Shown here in pieces: positions 23,281-30,573 of a stretch of 64,000 bases of DNA. Every line of letters begins with the position of its first letter. Within the stretch, counting starts at the first letter, position 1. Under the pieces are notes generated by a model. That model was given only the letters and a program-made list of their open reading frames with translations, was not told the origin of the DNA and made no database searches. The position numbers and the translations under genes were made by a program. Source of the stretch: Cedecea neteri (GTDB lineage Bacteria; Pseudomonadota; Gammaproteobacteria; Enterobacterales; Enterobacteriaceae); NCBI RefSeq assembly GCF_000758325.1, contig NZ_CP009459.1, forward strand, positions 2,604,001 through 2,668,000. The letters run 5' to 3'.

Positions 23281-23958
23281 CTATTTTTTTAACAGGCGAG
23301 GGAGTTGGTTTTCCAGTTCAAGCACGCATGCATCCATCATTTTCTGTGTTTCTTCGGTGACTTTCTGATAATTATTTGCCTGCCAGTCGGCCAGAGGGGC
23401 TGTTTTAATTGATGGCGAACATTCAGCAGTGACAAATGAGCTAAACATACTTCCCCCTTCAGGACGTTTGTAGAACAACACGCGATACGTTAAGTCATAG
23501 TTGCTGTTGCTGGCGGACATGTCGGTATACACCAGCGACCAGCGCGAGGCCGCTATCACTAAAGGTTCTTTATAGCTGTAGTTTCCACTTTGCTTATCAA
23601 GCCACTCACGAATTTTGCCTTCTGCCTTCGGCGTCAAATATCGCGCTGTAGGCTCCGGCATCGCGTCTATCGAGTTTCCCTTATAGCTATCTTTGTCAAA
23701 GGAATTGGTGCTGACACCACCGCCTAATACCGCGCCTAAAACAGCGAGTCCCATACCAGCGCCAGAATGCGCCGGGGAAACTAAGCGCAGGGTAGTGTCC
23801 GGATAATGATTATTATTTATTTCCACCTGCGCAAAAGTAGAGGAAACATCGAGTGTGCTGCCATTATTAGCTTTTACTGTATCCGGTTTTTTTGGGGAAG
23901 CGCATCCGGCTAATAAAGTAATAGAAAGTACGCCGGTGGTTATTGTTTTAATACTCAA
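23281..23958 (-). CDS. Putative lipoprotein of unknown function
   Basis: I place the start at a TTG (23956-23958) behind AAGGAA. It yields a compact lipoprotein signal peptide ending in the lipobox LLAGC, so the mature protein begins CASPKK. 225 residues. The next ATG upstream would add 16 residues before the signal peptide. A glycine-rich hydrophobic stretch (GAGMGLAVLGAVLGGGVS) lies near mature residue 65. No family recognised. Downstream of mtnB on the same strand with a 79-bp gap. Confidence 0.75.
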   Translation of the reverse strand: MSIKTITTGVLSITLLAGCASPKKPDTVKANNGSTLDVSSTFAQVEINNNHYPDTTLRLVSPAHSGAGMGLAVLGAVLGGGVSTNSFDKDSYKGNSIDAMPEPTARYLTPKAEGKIREWLDKQSGNYSYKEPLVIAASRWSLVYTDMSASNSNYDLTYRVLFYKRPEGGSMFSSFVTAECSPSIKTAPLADWQANNYQKVTEETQKMMDACVLELENQLPRLLKK

Positions 23959-24085
23959 AGAGATTCCTTTTTCTATAGCTGGCTCCACTCCGTGGGACGA
24001 ATACAATGTTTTAAGCTTTGTTACACGGAGTGAAATGAGATTATTTGCCGTAAAGTTAACGGCCAGCTAAAAGGAAACTTTAGAA

Positions 24086-24897: not shown

Positions 24898-24921
24898 TTT
24901 GTTATGTTATAACGTAACAAA
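24898..24921. promoter_or_regulatory. Zur box of the folE2 operon
   Basis: A 24-bp near-perfect palindrome centred on TTATAA with arms TTTGTTATG and CGTAACAAA, matching the enterobacterial Zur site type (TGTTATA-NN-TATAACA). It ends 14 bases before the folE2 start codon, where bound Zur would block transcription when zinc is plentiful. Confidence 0.88.
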
Positions 24922-24935
24922 TCCAAAGTTAGACG

Positions 24936-25874
24936 ATGCGCGATATGACAGTCACCCCAATGTTATGCCCCAAAAAGCTGCCTGATATTCAATCACTCAC
25001 AAGCTCCGAATTCGATACGGCCCTGTCCTGGGTCGGCATGGAGCAAATCGATCTTCCGGTGGAAGTGGCGGGTCGCCCTCTGACGGCGAAAGTCAGCGCC
25101 GGCATCAACCTTCTCAGTACGCCGGAAACGGAAAAGGGCATTCATATGTCCCGGCTGTATCTGCTGCTGGATGCGCTAACTCAGGGCGAAATTACGCCTG
25201 CGGTATTGCGCCATTTACTGGGAGAGTTTTTGGTTTCTCATCAACGCAGTAGCGACCGCGCCAGCGTGGAAATCACCGGCGAACTTCTACTGTCCCGCAA
25301 ATCTTTAACCTCAAACCACTTTGGCTGGAAGGCTTACCCCATCCGTATTCTGGCTGAGCTGGGGAAGGCTTTTGCCGTCACGGTCCGGGTGGGAATCCCA
25401 TATTCCTCTACCTGTCCGGCCTCGGCGGCACTTAGCCGTAACCTCGCACAGCAGCAGTTTCAGCGGGACTTTGGCTCGCGACATGGTGGCGTGTCCGTCG
25501 AAGAAATGCTGGCCTGGCTGGGCGAGAAGGGCATGCCGGGCACGCCCCACAGCCAGAGAAGCTGGGCGTGGGTTAGCTGCCAGCTGAAGCCGGATGTTGC
25601 CACGCTGCCGTTTCTGGCGGTTATCGATCGCTGTGAGGCCGCGCTTGGGACGGCGGTGCAGACGGTGGTCAAACGCAGCGACGAGCAGGCCTTTGCCCAT
25701 GCCAACGGCCAAAATTTGATGTTTTGCGAAGACGCTGCCCGCCGCCTGAACAAGGCGATGCTGGACGCGCCTTTTAGCGCCGCTTTTGCCCTCCGCGTTG
25801 AGCATCAGGAAAGCCTCCATGCGCACAACGCGGTGGCCCGTATTCACTGGACAGGAAATCACCATGTTGCGTAA
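24936..25874 (+). CDS. folE2: GTP cyclohydrolase IB (FolE2), zinc-independent
   Basis: Makes dihydroneopterin triphosphate for folate like FolE, but belongs to the unrelated COG1469 family that uses other divalent metals and takes over when zinc is scarce. 312 residues. Visible family features are KGIHMSRLY (His70), the metal-binding Cys160 in IPYSSTCPAS, and GTPHSQRSW. An ATG nine bases on (24945) is an alternative start. First gene behind a Zur box. Its last 11 bases overlap the next gene, so it heads an operon. Confidence 0.95.
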   Translation: MRDMTVTPMLCPKKLPDIQSLTSSEFDTALSWVGMEQIDLPVEVAGRPLTAKVSAGINLLSTPETEKGIHMSRLYLLLDALTQGEITPAVLRHLLGEFLVSHQRSSDRASVEITGELLLSRKSLTSNHFGWKAYPIRILAELGKAFAVTVRVGIPYSSTCPASAALSRNLAQQQFQRDFGSRHGGVSVEEMLAWLGEKGMPGTPHSQRSWAWVSCQLKPDVATLPFLAVIDRCEAALGTAVQTVVKRSDEQAFAHANGQNLMFCEDAARRLNKAMLDAPFSAAFALRVEHQESLHAHNAVARIHWTGNHHVA

Positions 25875-26424
25875 AAACCCTTCAGGCCATCTGCCGCAGG
25901 TCTCTCCCAAAGCGTACATCGACCCCACGGCGGTCATTTGTGGCCGGGTCATTATTCATGACTATGTTTATGTCGGGCCTTATGCGGTGATCCGCGCCGA
26001 TGAGCTGAACGCCGAAGGGGACATGGATCCTATCGTGATCCATTCCCATTCGAATATTCAGGACGGGGTGGTTATTCACTCCAAAAGCGGGGCGCCGGTG
26101 ACCATTGGCAGCGGCACGTCGATTGCGCACCGGGCTATCGTGCACGGCCCTTGCCGGGTCGACGAGCGGGTGTTTATCGGCTTTAACAGCGTGCTGTTTA
26201 ACTGCCACGTACAAACCGGCTGCGTCATTCGCTACAACGCGGTGGTGGATGGGGTGACACTGCCGAAGCAAACCTATATTCCGTCCACCGAGCGCGTGGG
26301 GCCAGACTCTGATTTAACCCAATATTCCCGGGTTGACCCCGCTTCGGTGCAGTTTTCTGAAGAGGTGGCCAACACCAACGTCAAGCTGGTGGAAGGCTAC
26401 CAGCTGCTGCGCAACGAGTTCTGA
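25864..26424 (+). CDS. Gamma-class carbonic anhydrase-like protein
   Basis: Left-handed beta-helix protein of the gamma carbonic anhydrase family. The three metal-binding histidines are present as His72, His89 and His94 (VVIHSKSG, IAHRAIVHGP), with Arg44/Asp46 (VIRADE) and Gln66 (NIQDG) at family positions. 186 residues. The start at 25864 has AGGAAATC upstream and overlaps folE2 by 11 bp. Gamma enzymes can use iron or cobalt, so here it may replace zinc-dependent carbonic anhydrase during zinc shortage. That role is inferred from its place in the operon. Confidence 0.88.
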   Translation: MLRKNPSGHLPQVSPKAYIDPTAVICGRVIIHDYVYVGPYAVIRADELNAEGDMDPIVIHSHSNIQDGVVIHSKSGAPVTIGSGTSIAHRAIVHGPCRVDERVFIGFNSVLFNCHVQTGCVIRYNAVVDGVTLPKQTYIPSTERVGPDSDLTQYSRVDPASVQFSEEVANTNVKLVEGYQLLRNEF

Positions 26425-26426
26425 GT

Positions 26427-27224
26427 ATGCTTTTTTCCTCCGCAGAGCCAGCACCCGAGCTTAGCGTTTCCCTGCGGGCGATTGTCCGTCCGCAGGGCAC
26501 ATCCTGGCCGGTGGCGATTAATTTTCAGCTGCGAAAAGGCGAGCGGCTCAGCGTGATTGGGCCAAACGGCAGCGGCAAAACGTCGCTGTTGCGGGCGCTG
26601 AGCCAGGAGCTAAGGGCCGAAGGGGAGATAACGCTTGCGGGCCGCCCTTTAAATAAGCTCAACCCACTGCTGCGGGCAAAGCTCGTGGCGGTCATGTCGC
26701 AAAACGATCTCCCAGATTTGCGTCTCTCCATTGAGGATTATGTCGCGTTAGGCAGGCTCCCGTTTGCCCGTGATATGCCCGAGCCAGAACACCGCTGCAT
26801 TGTTTGTGGGGCGATGAAAGAGGTAGGGGTGCTCGGGCTGCGGCATAAATCGCTGGCCTGTCTGTCCGGCGGGGAAAGGCAGCGGGCGATTCTGGCGCGA
26901 ACGCTGGCGCAGACTTCCCGGCTGCTGTTGCTGGATGAGCCGACTAACCATCTGGACCTGGCGGCACGGGAAGAGCTGCTGGCGCTGGTGAAAGCTCGTG
27001 GCACAACGGTTATCGCCGTCCTGCACGATCTCAACTTAATCGAAGGGTTTGCCAACAAAGTCCTTATTTTGTCGGCGGGGCAACAGCAGGCTTTTAACGT
27101 GCCCGATGCCGCGCTGAATACTGAAACCCTCCGCCCCGTTTTCGGCCTCGACAGCTTTACCGTTGACCATCCAGGTCAGCAAGGCAGGCGAGTCCGTTTC
27201 TTTGAACCTTCACGCCCACGGTAA
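26427..27224 (+). CDS. ABC transporter ATPase, FecE/BtuD type
   Basis: ATP-binding subunit of an uptake system: Walker A GPNGSGKT (45-52), signature LSGGERQR, Walker B RLLLLDEPTNHLD and switch histidine in VLHDLNL. 265 residues. Starts two bases after the preceding stop, with no strong ribosome site, and is followed 16 bp later by the binding-protein gene. Subfamily is that of siderophore, haem and cobalamin importers. Within a Zur-type operon, a zinc or zinc-metallophore substrate is the likely inference. Confidence 0.88.
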   Translation: MLFSSAEPAPELSVSLRAIVRPQGTSWPVAINFQLRKGERLSVIGPNGSGKTSLLRALSQELRAEGEITLAGRPLNKLNPLLRAKLVAVMSQNDLPDLRLSIEDYVALGRLPFARDMPEPEHRCIVCGAMKEVGVLGLRHKSLACLSGGERQRAILARTLAQTSRLLLLDEPTNHLDLAAREELLALVKARGTTVIAVLHDLNLIEGFANKVLILSAGQQQAFNVPDAALNTETLRPVFGLDSFTVDHPGQQGRRVRFFEPSRPR

Positions 27225-27240
27225 ATTTTCAGGGATCGCT

Positions 27241-28194
27241 ATGATGTTAAAAATCGCTACCGGCTTCTGGCTGGCCTTTGTTTCTTCTGCTGCGTTTGCC
27301 TCCGGCTTCCCGGTGACCATTGAGAGCTGCGGTAAACCCATTGTCTTTACCGAAGCACCAAAGCGGGCGGTAATCAACGACCTGAATATGTCGGAGATGG
27401 CTTTTGCTCTGGATTTGCAACCGCAGATTGTGGGCCTGACCGGCATCTCCGGCTGGTACAAAATGACGCCCGAATTTAAGCGGCAAATGGGGACGATCCC
27501 CGAACTTGCGCCCAAGTATCCCTCGCTTGAAACGCTGCTGGCCGCTGAGCCAGATTTCTTCTTTGCGGGCTGGAATTACGGCATGAAAGTGGGGGGCGAC
27601 GTCACCCCCCAAAGCCTTGCCAGATACGGCATCAAAACCTTTGTGCTCAGCGAAAGCTGCGCGATTTCCGGCGAAAGTAAAACTAAAGCGACCCTGGATC
27701 TGCTCTATAACGATGAGCTTACGCTTGGCAAAATTTTTGGTAAGGCAGAGGCTGCTCAGAAGCTGGTTGATGGCTGGAAAGCGCGGCTGGCGGCCCTCCC
27801 CAAAGCGCAGCCGGGCGCACGGCCGCTGAAAGTCTTTGTGTATGACTCCGGGGAAGACAAACCGTTTACCAGCGGAAAATACGCCATGCCGCAGGCCATT
27901 ATCGAGGCCGCTGGCGGTAAAAACGCCATGGAAGGGCTGGACACCAGCTGGGGTACCACCTCCTGGGAAAGCGTGGCGGCCACCGAGCCGGATGTCATCA
28001 TCCTGCTGGATTACCAGACCGGCGGGGGCGCGGATTCGTTGCGCCAGTTCCTTGAGCGTCACCCGTTGATGAAGCTTACTCCGGCGGTGAAACAGCATCG
28101 CTACCTCAAGTTGCAGTATGCCGAATTGACGCCGGGTCCGGCAAATATCGCCGCGGTTGAGAAGCTCGCTCACGTTCTGTTCGCGGCACAGTGA
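27241..28194 (+). CDS. Periplasmic substrate-binding protein, FecB/BtuF type
   Basis: Helical-backbone metal-receptor binding protein. From the ATG at 27241 (AGGGATCGCT upstream) it has 317 residues, with a signal peptide MMLKIATGFWLAFVSSAAFA and mature start SGFPVTIESCGKPIVF. The TEAPKRAVINDLNMSEMAFALDLQPQIVGLTG block is typical of the family. Two cysteines (IESCG, LSESCAI) may pair. Delivers substrate to the adjacent permease. It is not a ZnuA-type protein and lacks a histidine-rich loop, so it may bind a metal complex rather than the free ion. Confidence 0.87.
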   Translation: MMLKIATGFWLAFVSSAAFASGFPVTIESCGKPIVFTEAPKRAVINDLNMSEMAFALDLQPQIVGLTGISGWYKMTPEFKRQMGTIPELAPKYPSLETLLAAEPDFFFAGWNYGMKVGGDVTPQSLARYGIKTFVLSESCAISGESKTKATLDLLYNDELTLGKIFGKAEAAQKLVDGWKARLAALPKAQPGARPLKVFVYDSGEDKPFTSGKYAMPQAIIEAAGGKNAMEGLDTSWGTTSWESVAATEPDVIILLDYQTGGGADSLRQFLERHPLMKLTPAVKQHRYLKLQYAELTPGPANIAAVEKLAHVLFAAQ

Positions 28195-29192
28195 TGTTGA
28201 TTGCTTCCCGCTATGGCCGGGCCGCAAGCCTGACGGTGTTTCTGACCCTGCTTTTTGCGGCGCTTAGCTTAACGGAAGGCTCGGTCCGGCTCAGTCTGCA
28301 TCAGGTGGTCAGCGCGCTTCACCCCACGGTAACGGATATTTCGCCGATGATTCGTGGGATCGTGCTGGACATCCGGTTGCCCAGAACGCTGCTGGCCCTG
28401 ATGACCGGCGCGGGGCTGGCGGTTGTGGGCGCGCTGCTGCAAACGGCCACGCGCAACGAGCTGGCGGATCCTTTTCTGTTCGGACTTTCTTCGGGAGCGT
28501 CTGCCGGAGCGGTGCTGGTTTTTACCCGCTTCGGTGACTTCTTCGGCGGCTGGACGCTCCCGGCGGCGGCTTTTGGCGGCGGGCTACTTTCCTCGGTTGC
28601 GGTGCTGTCTTTATTCCAGCTCAAGCGCGAGCGGGGTGCCGAAACGCTGATTATTTGCGGGCTGGCTATCTCTTTCTTGTTCGGGGCGTTAACCAGCTAC
28701 CTGATATTCGCCGGTGACCAGCGCACAGCCAGCTCGGTTTTGTTCTGGTCGCTCGGCGGCCTGGGGCTGGCGCGGTGGGATAACCTGGAATTTGCGCTGG
28801 GTGGTGTGCTGCTGCTGGCCGCGTTTTGCCTGCTGAGATGGCGATCGCTGGACGGATTACTCGCGGGCGATCGCACCGCATTTTCACTGGGCATTAACGT
28901 CAACCGCCTGCGCACCGAAATTTTTCTGTGCTGCGCTTTTTCGACCGCCATTTTTGTATCGCTGACCGGCGTGATTGGCTTTGTCGGGCTGATGGTACCG
29001 CATCTTTGCCGCCATTTTTCCGCCATTAAGCACGCCAGGCTGCTGCCTTTGTGCGCTCTGGCTGGAGCCTGTTTATTGTGCGGCGGCGATCTCGTCAGCC
29101 GGGTACTGGTTGCGCCGCAGGAGCTGCCCATCGGCATTATTACCGCCGGAATTGGCGGGCTGTTTATTGTTGTGATGGTTGCCCGACGCTAG
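28194..29192 (+). CDS. ABC transporter permease, FecCD type
   Basis: Inner-membrane permease of the FecCD family with about ten hydrophobic segments over 332 residues. Family motifs are DIRLPRTLLALMTGAGLAVVGALLQTATRNELADPFLFG near the N terminus and GVIGFVGLMVPHLCRH towards the C terminus. Its ATG overlaps the preceding TGA by one base (TGATG); a GTG three bases earlier is possible. With the ATPase and binding protein it makes a complete importer, and no outer-membrane receptor is encoded in the cluster. Confidence 0.88.
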   Translation: MLIASRYGRAASLTVFLTLLFAALSLTEGSVRLSLHQVVSALHPTVTDISPMIRGIVLDIRLPRTLLALMTGAGLAVVGALLQTATRNELADPFLFGLSSGASAGAVLVFTRFGDFFGGWTLPAAAFGGGLLSSVAVLSLFQLKRERGAETLIICGLAISFLFGALTSYLIFAGDQRTASSVLFWSLGGLGLARWDNLEFALGGVLLLAAFCLLRWRSLDGLLAGDRTAFSLGINVNRLRTEIFLCCAFSTAIFVSLTGVIGFVGLMVPHLCRHFSAIKHARLLPLCALAGACLLCGGDLVSRVLVAPQELPIGIITAGIGGLFIVVMVARR

Positions 29193-29223
29193 CGCAGCCT
29201 TTTTAAGCCGGAGAAAACGACTG

Positions 29224-30573
29224 ATGAAACCGCTGTTACTGACCAACGCGCTGATGATGAATGAGGATCGGCGTTACCAGGGCGACCTGCTCATCGTGGA
29301 CGGGCGAATTGAAAAAATAGCCGCTGCGATCCCGGCTCGTGCAACGTGGAGCGTGCTCGATCTTGGCGGGAAATGGCTGCTGCCGGGCATGATTGACGAT
29401 CAGGTGCACTTTCGCGAACCGGGGTTGATGCACAAGGGCACGATAGCCAGCGAGTCGCGCGCGGCGGTGATGGGCGGCATCACCAGCTATATGGAAATGC
29501 CCAACGTTTCGCCACCAACCACAACCAGACAGGCGCTGGCAGGCAAATTTCAACGGGCCGCCGAATGTTCACTGGCGAATTACAGTTTCTATTTCGGTGC
29601 CACCAACGACAATCTGGAAGAACTTAAGGCGCTGCCAGCCGATGCGGCCTGCGGTGTAAAAGTGTTTATGGGGGCCTCCACCGGCAACATGCTGGTGGAT
29701 GATGAACGCACCCTGGAGGCGATTTTCCAGCATGCGCCGGGGCTGGTGGCCACGCATTGCGAAGACACGCCGACGATCAAACGTAATGAGGCGCTGTGGT
29801 TAGAGCGACATTGGGAGCAGATCCCGGCTGCAGAACACGCGGCCATTCGCTCGGTAGAGGCCTGCCTGCTTTCATCTTCCCAGGCGGTTGCGCTGGCGAA
29901 AAAACACGGCACGCGGCTGCATGTGCTGCATATCACCACGGCTGATGAGCTGGCGCTGTTTGAACCTGCGCCCACTCTTGAGGCCTTACGCAGAAAAACA
30001 ATTACGGCGGAAGCCTGTATTCATCACCTCTATTTCAATCAGGATGATTACGCTGCGCTGGGGCACAGGCTGAAGTGCAACCCGTCAGTGAAGGGCCCGG
30101 AACACCAGCGGGCGCTATGGCAGGCGGTTAAGACAGGCGTGATTGATATTATTGCGACCGACCATGCGCCGCATTTGCTGACAGAAAAGCAGAATGATTA
30201 TTTCTCGGCTCCGTCGGGATTGCCGCTGGTACAACACGCGCTGCCTGCGTTGCTGGATATGTGTGCCAGAGGGATTTTCACGCCTGAACTTATCGTCAGA
30301 AAAACCAGCCACGCGGTAGCCGAGCGTTTTCAGATTAAGGATCGCGGCTATATCCGGGAAGGTTACTGGGCCGATCTGGCGGTGATCAACCCCTGGAAAC
30401 GCGCCAGCATTGAGAGCCGCAATGTTGCCTACAAATGCGGCTGGTCACCCTTCGAAGGGCACACCTTACAGGGCGGCGTGGTTGAAAGCACGTTAGTGAA
30501 CGGGCGCCTCGTCTGGGACGGAGAGTCAGTTGCCGAGGGGATTTACGGCCAGGCGCTGGCGTTTAACCGCTAG
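29224..30573 (+). CDS. Second dihydroorotase (PyrC2/PyrQ type)
   Basis: Amidohydrolase of the class I dihydroorotase type, 449 residues, starting 31 bases after the permease behind GGAGAAAAC. Metal-site motifs are GVKVFMGAS (candidate carboxylated lysine), ATHCED, LHVLHITT and IATDHAPH. The usual HxH before FREPG is altered to Gln60-Val-His62 (DDQVHFREPG), a pattern known in one dihydroorotase subfamily. Zur-controlled dihydroorotase paralogues (PyrQ in Pseudomonas) are thought to sustain pyrimidine synthesis when zinc is limiting, which fits the operon. Catalytic activity is not proven. Confidence 0.85.
   Translation: MKPLLLTNALMMNEDRRYQGDLLIVDGRIEKIAAAIPARATWSVLDLGGKWLLPGMIDDQVHFREPGLMHKGTIASESRAAVMGGITSYMEMPNVSPPTTTRQALAGKFQRAAECSLANYSFYFGATNDNLEELKALPADAACGVKVFMGASTGNMLVDDERTLEAIFQHAPGLVATHCEDTPTIKRNEALWLERHWEQIPAAEHAAIRSVEACLLSSSQAVALAKKHGTRLHVLHITTADELALFEPAPTLEALRRKTITAEACIHHLYFNQDDYAALGHRLKCNPSVKGPEHQRALWQAVKTGVIDIIATDHAPHLLTEKQNDYFSAPSGLPLVQHALPALLDMCARGIFTPELIVRKTSHAVAERFQIKDRGYIREGYWADLAVINPWKRASIESRNVAYKCGWSPFEGHTLQGGVVESTLVNGRLVWDGESVAEGIYGQALAFNR

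Follow-up and report, generated by a model that had tools for sequence, protein, structure and literature searches.

The locus described here raises two questions: what controls a gene cluster that joins substitute enzymes to an importer of its own, and what would that importer carry? It lies within the window, i.e. the whole 64,000-nucleotide stretch of Cedecea neteri DNA that was analysed (NZ_CP009459.1), and comprises six forward-strand genes, encoding FolE2, a gamma carbonic anhydrase (CA), an ABC ATPase, a periplasmic binding protein, a permease and a dihydroorotase (PyrC), with no spacing above 31 bp (Table 1). The folE2 and CA genes overlap by 11 bp, gaps of 2 and 16 bp precede the ATPase and binding-protein genes, respectively, the binding-protein and permease genes overlap by 4 or 1 bp, depending on the start chosen, and 31 bp separate the permease gene from pyrC. 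A first-pass annotation had described six tightly packed genes on one strand, behind a near-perfect palindrome for the regulator Zur that ends 14 bases ahead of folE2, and both parts of this description were borne out. We consider it likely that this is a Zur-repressed zinc-starvation operon, combining substitute isozymes with an importer for a chelated divalent metal, i.e. cobalt or zinc.

The palindrome, with the half-sites TTTGTTATGTTA and TAACGTAACAAA, is found exactly at 24898-24921, i.e. 14 bases before the folE2 start codon (ATG at 24936, with an alternative ATG possible at 24945), and by eye 11 of its 12 positions pair; an inverted-repeat search returned it with 16-nt arms that are 88 % complementary. 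With up to three mismatches allowed, the 20-mer TGTTAYGTTATAACRTAACA occurs once in the window, versus 0.01 occurrences expected from shuffled sequences. Another reading of the operator gives a pair of 13-bp cores, GTTATGTTATAAC and GTTATAACGTAAC, which overlap with an offset of 5 bp and would fit the binding of Zur as a dimer of dimers reported for Escherichia coli (PMC6103462). By eye, TTGCAT is followed after 18 bases by TATAAC, so that the -10 element would fall within the box. The 24-mer is identical in all five Cedecea-clade loci found (L005-L009), though folE2 identity drops to 78 % in C. davisae.

Other zinc genes in this genome carry similar boxes. The core pattern was scanned with one mismatch over the 4.66-Mb genome and eight regions were read, five of the places lying outside them. 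Boxes of 24 to 36 bits were present in five of the eight regions, at the genes for an AztC-like importer, zinT, a ZigA-type COG0523 gene, rpmE2 and an HflK/HflC-like pair; with each site left out of its own matrix, these five boxes and the folE2 site scored 18.8 to 34.7 bits. ZinT, ZigA, L31 and Zur itself (328.2 bits versus a curated cut-off of 167) exceed their NCBIfam cut-offs, and the AztC-like and HflKC-like proteins fall below theirs. Because of the like boxes at other zinc genes, the Zur protein above its cut-off and the identical box in the five Cedecea-clade loci, Zur control is supported and the operon is predicted to be under Zur repression. When zinc is sufficient, Zn-Zur would occupy the operator, over the probable promoter, and block all six genes, which would be transcribed together; this expectation draws on the box and on the other boxed genes.

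As a separate observation, one protein of the HflK/HflC-like pair (L092 2-2802, within C1:4341500-4347500) has a His-rich start, and the Zur box upstream of the pair scores 30.6 bits. The HflK/HflC-like PA2437-2439 are included in a Zur list of Pseudomonas aeruginosa (PMC4542158).

Under low zinc, FolE2 and PyrC would replace the zinc-type FolE and the PyrC encoded elsewhere, and the CA would be produced too. Both FolE2 and PyrC exceed the curated NCBIfam cut-offs of their families and, since a zinc-type FolE and a dimer-type PyrC are encoded elsewhere in the genome, both are second forms. The enzyme replacement put forward in the first-pass annotation is supported by these two genes and by the published Zur control of the trio in P. 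aeruginosa, where PA5539-PA5541 (folE2, gamma-CA and pyrC2/pyrQ) appear in the Zur list (PMC4542158, PMC13261364). Enzymes and order agree between that cluster and the window, except that in the window the ABC importer stands between CA and pyrC.

The CA belongs to the hexapeptide-repeat family and passes no NCBIfam cut-off (NF040597, 110.5 versus 380 bits; NF050158, 55.9 versus 250 bits); the three His are retained in 23 of the 24 aligned rows, L132 deviating at the end of its short frame. An HxH metal pair is usual in dihydroorotases. The window PyrC reads DDQVH, with Gln at the place of the first His, and retains the Lys, two His and the Asp. Eleven PyrC rows were compared, in which L130/L006 and L131/L007 are seemingly the same strains; Gln replaces the first His in all ten that contain the segment, the eleventh (L051) being without it. 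The dihydroorotase in PDB entry 2gwn has the same type of motif. Metal ligands of dihydroorotases are named in PMC2770081.

What, then, does the importer bring in? The predicted 'FecBCD importer' is present, although the name stands here for a single ATPase, a single binding protein and a single permease. As had been proposed, the binding protein is not ZnuA-like: PF01497 is its only Pfam family, and PF01297, the cluster A-I family of ZnuA, is not matched. ZnuABC, AztABC and ZniCBA share the role in zinc starvation but use PF01297 binding proteins, of which ZniA binds zinc through three His and one Glu (PMC10797113). H274 is the only invariant His among 55 aligned proteins, and just 6 of the 12 proteins from Pseudomonadaceae keep it, so that a ZnuA-like site for bare zinc is unlikely. 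The structural model (pLDDT 89.7) matches the class that binds siderophores, heme, B12 or Ni-His, including Helicobacter pylori CeuE with Ni-His; CeuE and the heme- and B12-binding proteins show 15 to 26 % identity to the window protein, and their regulation differs. A small chelate of a divalent metal, either cobalt or zinc, would be the cargo rather than bare zinc. An F420-0 importer was considered and rejected, the scores for TIGR03868 and TIGR03869 being 168.7 of 392.4 and 215.4 of 437.35 bits.

The closest studied system is PA2911-PA2914 of P. aeruginosa, whose ATPase, binding-protein and permease genes are ordered as in the window; it is reported to be controlled by zinc and Zur and to import pyochelin-cobalt under zinc starvation (PMC11481552). 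An equation of PA2911-2914 with zrmABCD was dropped, zrmABCD being the pseudopaline system (PMC11481552). A Pseudomonas-like genome (G162) was found by an OprD search, and the 248 genomes of its family were taken as Pseudomonadaceae; 95 of them match the binding protein at 1e-12, 45 forming a close tier of at least 329 bits, of which 12 loci were read. A TonB receptor lies directly upstream on the same strand in nine of the twelve; another frame is upstream in L166 and L179, L173 is too short, and L164 is without a labelled permease frame. Published PA2911 primers (PMC13083405) fit L171, two of them exactly and two with 2 mismatches, the other two not being found there. This locus was therefore treated as the PA2911-2914 cluster of a genome resembling P. 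aeruginosa; the matched primers flank its receptor gene on both sides, and one primer fits other loci too, with 1 or 2 mismatches.

Identities between the window and L171 are 45.7 % for the binding protein, 50.2 % for the permease and 38.6 % for the ATPase. Searched with the L171 binding protein, the window protein scores 271 bits and the next of the five own-genome proteins 46.6 bits, and in the reverse direction the window protein has one match in G787 at 1e-12, so that the two are best matches both ways among the five own proteins compared. In addition, 52 of 66 invariant residues are present in at least 75 % of the 12 close-tier binding proteins. On these comparisons the importer is a member of the PA2912-PA2914 family, one that would be produced when zinc is low.

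In contrast to PA2911-PA2914, the window importer is joined to folE2, CA and pyrC and has no TonB receptor gene in its operon, as the first-pass annotation had stated; therefore it is a relative of PA2912-2914 and not a full PA2911-2914 system. Importer loci were sampled as the best 80 of 393 confirmed places, five from the Cedecea clade and 75 others, and BLAST at 1e-20 with the 17 receptors of the own genome, a set whose best score with the L171 receptor is 132 bits, found no TonB receptor within 8 kb (or the shorter DNA available) in any of the 80. Ten large neighbours in nine loci (L023, L031, L037, L040, L053, L055, L061, L070 with two, and L084) were rejected as receptor candidates, being other proteins: a phage/type VI secretion hub protein, an ABC protein, PriA, MetE, a molybdopterin oxidoreductase, SerRS, DUF2126, APS kinase and a nucleotidase are among them, and the L061 neighbour is without a family. 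The simplest entry route would be that of a small complex passing into the periplasm through a porin or through a receptor encoded elsewhere.

ATPase, binding protein and permease keep this order in 79 of the 80 loci, L080 being cut at a contig end, and the permease of L016 reads as two frames. Joining of folE2 and CA to the importer occurs in five loci, i.e. L005-L009 only, with pyrC found in three of these (L005-L007) and not in L008 and L009. A comparison of gene orders, as suggested in the first-pass annotation, places the fused order in the Cedecea clade alone among the samples examined. In C. davisae (L009), the distance from the permease to the next gene is only about 33 bp.

Boxes were scored with a matrix trained on the own genome only and counted from 15 bits upwards in the 250 bp ahead of a gene and up to 60 bp into its frame. 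With L057 and L080 dropped for lack of upstream DNA, 73 of the 75 non-Cedecea loci were usable; 51 of them have a box at the importer, compared with 21 of the 694 other genes in these loci, some of which share the importer's box or are COG0523 genes. In Enterobacterales, Vibrio and Aeromonas, the importer usually stands alone as a unit of three genes behind a Zur box. Metallophore synthesis genes were considered as the boxed upstream genes of L019, L051 and L052 and rejected, these encoding COG0523 and WD40-repeat proteins. The WD40-repeat protein (L051 5905-6942, L052 4813-5850) separates COG0523 from the importer within a unit that has a Zur box. A CobN-like chelatase together with COG0523 stands beside the importer in the Burkholderiales-type loci L071, L073, L080 and L083.

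The unit is spread over many families but uncommon, since in an even class-level sample its binding protein was found in 6 of 369 genomes at E 1e-20. Binding-protein identity reaches 97 % in Enterobacter sp. Cy-643 and Ag1, and 95 % in Cedecea neteri. Among plasmids, 1319 records match, 589 of them at 60 % or more, and 579 of the 1319 are from Klebsiella. The Zur cluster of the Klebsiella virulence plasmid pLVPK, noted in 2009 (PMC2770081), likewise has boxed folE2, CA, pyrC-like and COG0523 genes (L115), and a related importer is found on L117. In contrast to the window operon, the pLVPK-type cluster is plasmid-borne and has its own zur and dksA2, with the importer outside the L115 stretch and folE2 outside the L117 stretch. 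The L115 and L117 plasmids are of the hypervirulence type, and some COG0523 and synthetase genes are there only as pieces.

Considering the metal, one possible explanation is that the importer serves a cobalt-for-zinc swap, in which a cobalt chelate fills FolE2, the CA and the Gln-variant PyrC. Without PA2914, cobalt falls and zinc shows no relevant change (PMC11481552), a mutant of the PA2911 receptor has reduced fitness in Galleria larvae (PMC13083405), and the motifs GISGW, FFFAGW and ESC are common to the window and the PA2913-like proteins. CobN-like genes stand by the importer in 4 of the 80 loci (one checked against NCBIfam), and one lies in the same stretch as the importer in the Pseudomonadaceae locus L177; such neighbours are nevertheless rare, and loci outside the Pseudomonadaceae have no receptor gene by the importer, leaving the cobalt swap tentative.

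Alternatively, the importer may take up a zinc chelate, i.e. a metallophore or amino-acid complex, as an extra zinc route. It is surrounded by Zur boxes and zinc genes, COG0523 genes occurring within 8 kb in 15 of the 80 loci, and CeuE with Ni-His is a precedent among the fold matches for an amino-acid complex. Against this, the pyochelin that the PA2911-type system admits is reported to be bound to cobalt and not to zinc (PMC13083405), and the genome already has ZnuA, above its cut-off, and the AztC-like protein below its own. We regard a zinc chelate as conceivable, short of probable. The 'zinc complex or metallophore' suggested in the first-pass annotation was right in kind, considering the chelate-binding fold and the pyochelin-cobalt reported for PA2912-PA2914, but overlooked a possible cobalt route. 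Under the preferred reading of a chelate importer for either metal, the imported metal may end up in the substitute enzymes or in the zinc proteins that remain.

Several observations weigh against this reading. A consensus scan reported no consensus promoter at the box, the one-mismatch core pattern occurs at 18 places in the genome versus 11 for the reversed control, and three of the eight regions read (L086, L090 and L091) contain no site of 9 bits. Of the 73 usable loci, 22 have no 15-bit box close to the ATPase; six of these have one before an upstream COG0523 gene (L019, L051, L052, L067, L069 and L078), the Phyllobacterium loci L070 and L082 have weak boxes of 13.1 and 12.2 bits, and 14 show no box with the own-genome motif, i.e. 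eight Burkholderiales-type loci (L035, L055, L061, L062, L065, L071, L073 and L083) as well as L021, L032, L041, L044, L060 and L064. As to a receptor elsewhere, the 17 own-genome receptors include no close PA2911 relative (best 130 bits, 23.8 % identity), and none has a strong box in the short stretches searched (best 13.4 bits, L101). Since the binding protein shares 45.7 % identity with its L171 counterpart and 14 of the 66 invariant residues, including Y73 and P300, are not kept in the PA2913-like family, the ligand may differ from that of PA2913. Eleven of the 12 close-tier rows form one group in the tree (90/97, drawn open), L173 standing apart on a long branch; the forks that connect this group with the rows of Enterobacterales, Vibrio and Rhizobiales are open, and distant-tier rows lie among these. 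The comparisons thus establish a common family but not strict orthology.

Two further loci of the sample bear on another explanation, namely that an iron-siderophore, heme or B12 importer came to stand in a zinc operon by chance: a second FecBCD-type set lies directly downstream of the importer in L018 (10082-12881), and EfeO/Dyp-peroxidase-like genes neighbour it in L050. Because of these iron-type neighbours and the open tree, this explanation was raised and the chelate-importer reading lowered slightly. The fold class is also common to heme, B12 and siderophore proteins, and the permease of the Klebsiella plasmid homologues is labelled 'iron ABC transporter'. Zur-type boxes directly ahead of the unit in 51 of 73 loci argue against it, as do the four other own-genome proteins of the class, which are distant (at most 60 bits), and the riboswitch search, in which no Rfam family reached its gathering score between 22000 and 33000, so that no cobalamin or other riboswitch was found there. 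An importer of this kind is improbable.

A last explanation holds that the two modules share a promoter through chance fusion, the importer having no functional tie to the enzymes. The order is fluid, since pyrC is missing in two of the five Cedecea-clade loci, but the fused folE2-CA-importer order and the identical box are kept in all five. Association beyond the clade also speaks against chance. Among 294 Enterobacteriaceae genomes, the binding protein is present in 39 (in four, G394, G422, G475 and G563, as pieces only), folE2 in 18 and both in 12, i.e. the binding protein occurs in 12 of 18 folE2 genomes versus 39 of 294 overall (Fisher 6e-8, kinship ignored), far above expectation. In six of the twelve, the two lie on one contig within 12 kb; three are fused (the own genome, G439 and G560), and in G630, G502 and G477 they are 8-11 kb apart in islands with zur-like, COG0523 and dksA2 genes, the island ATPase of G502 being a short piece without a box. 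All 17 other folE2 loci carry a box of at least 15 bits upstream of folE2 or of its dksA2, that of L143 at a distance of about 560 bp, and a CA frame is near folE2 in 16 of them, L133 having none. We therefore regard chance fusion as unlikely.

Table 1. Predicted operator and genes of the operon, with positions in the window
Feature	Position	Strand	Evidence
Zur-type operator, 24-bp palindrome	24898..24921		identical in L005-L009
folE2, GTP cyclohydrolase IB	24936..25874	+	PF02649 212.6 bits; NF010200 287.7 bits, cut-off 215
Gamma carbonic anhydrase, Cam/CcmM-like hexapeptide repeat	25864..26424	+	Pfam Hexapep; three metal-ligand His retained
FecE/HmuV-like ABC ATPase	26427..27224	+	PF00005; NF010068 191.7 bits, under cut-off 261
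FecB-like periplasmic binding protein, cluster A-II class	27241..28194	+	PF01497
FecCD-type permease	28191 (GTG) or 28194 (ATG)..29192	+	PF01032 276.2 bits
pyrC-like dihydroorotase, PRK09236 class	29224..30573	+	NF006688 676.4 bits, cut-off 535

Upstream of the operon, an open frame on the reverse strand (23281-24006) encodes a lipoprotein-like product of 241 aa without a Pfam or NCBIfam match.

No title or opening of an abstract dealt with this importer in Enterobacterales or with Zur in Cedecea, subscription papers and RegPrecise lying outside the search. The kinds of components are already known; what is new is the fused module order and a receptor-less branch of a recently studied importer family. 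It is tempting to speculate, doubtful as this stronger version is, that the operon is a self-contained metal-substitution kit, in which a single Zur switch induces, on one transcript, enzymes accepting another metal and a receptorless importer that supplies this metal as a small cobalt chelate, and that the importer represents an unnamed Zur-controlled route for cobalt or zinc chelates across Enterobacterales, Vibrio and Rhizobiales. Regardless, the operon unites two modules that have been studied apart in P. aeruginosa and makes a chelate importer that so far has no name a part of what is likely the response to zinc starvation in several Enterobacterales, opening the testable question of which metal the Zur-controlled substitute enzymes use and whether it is delivered with them.

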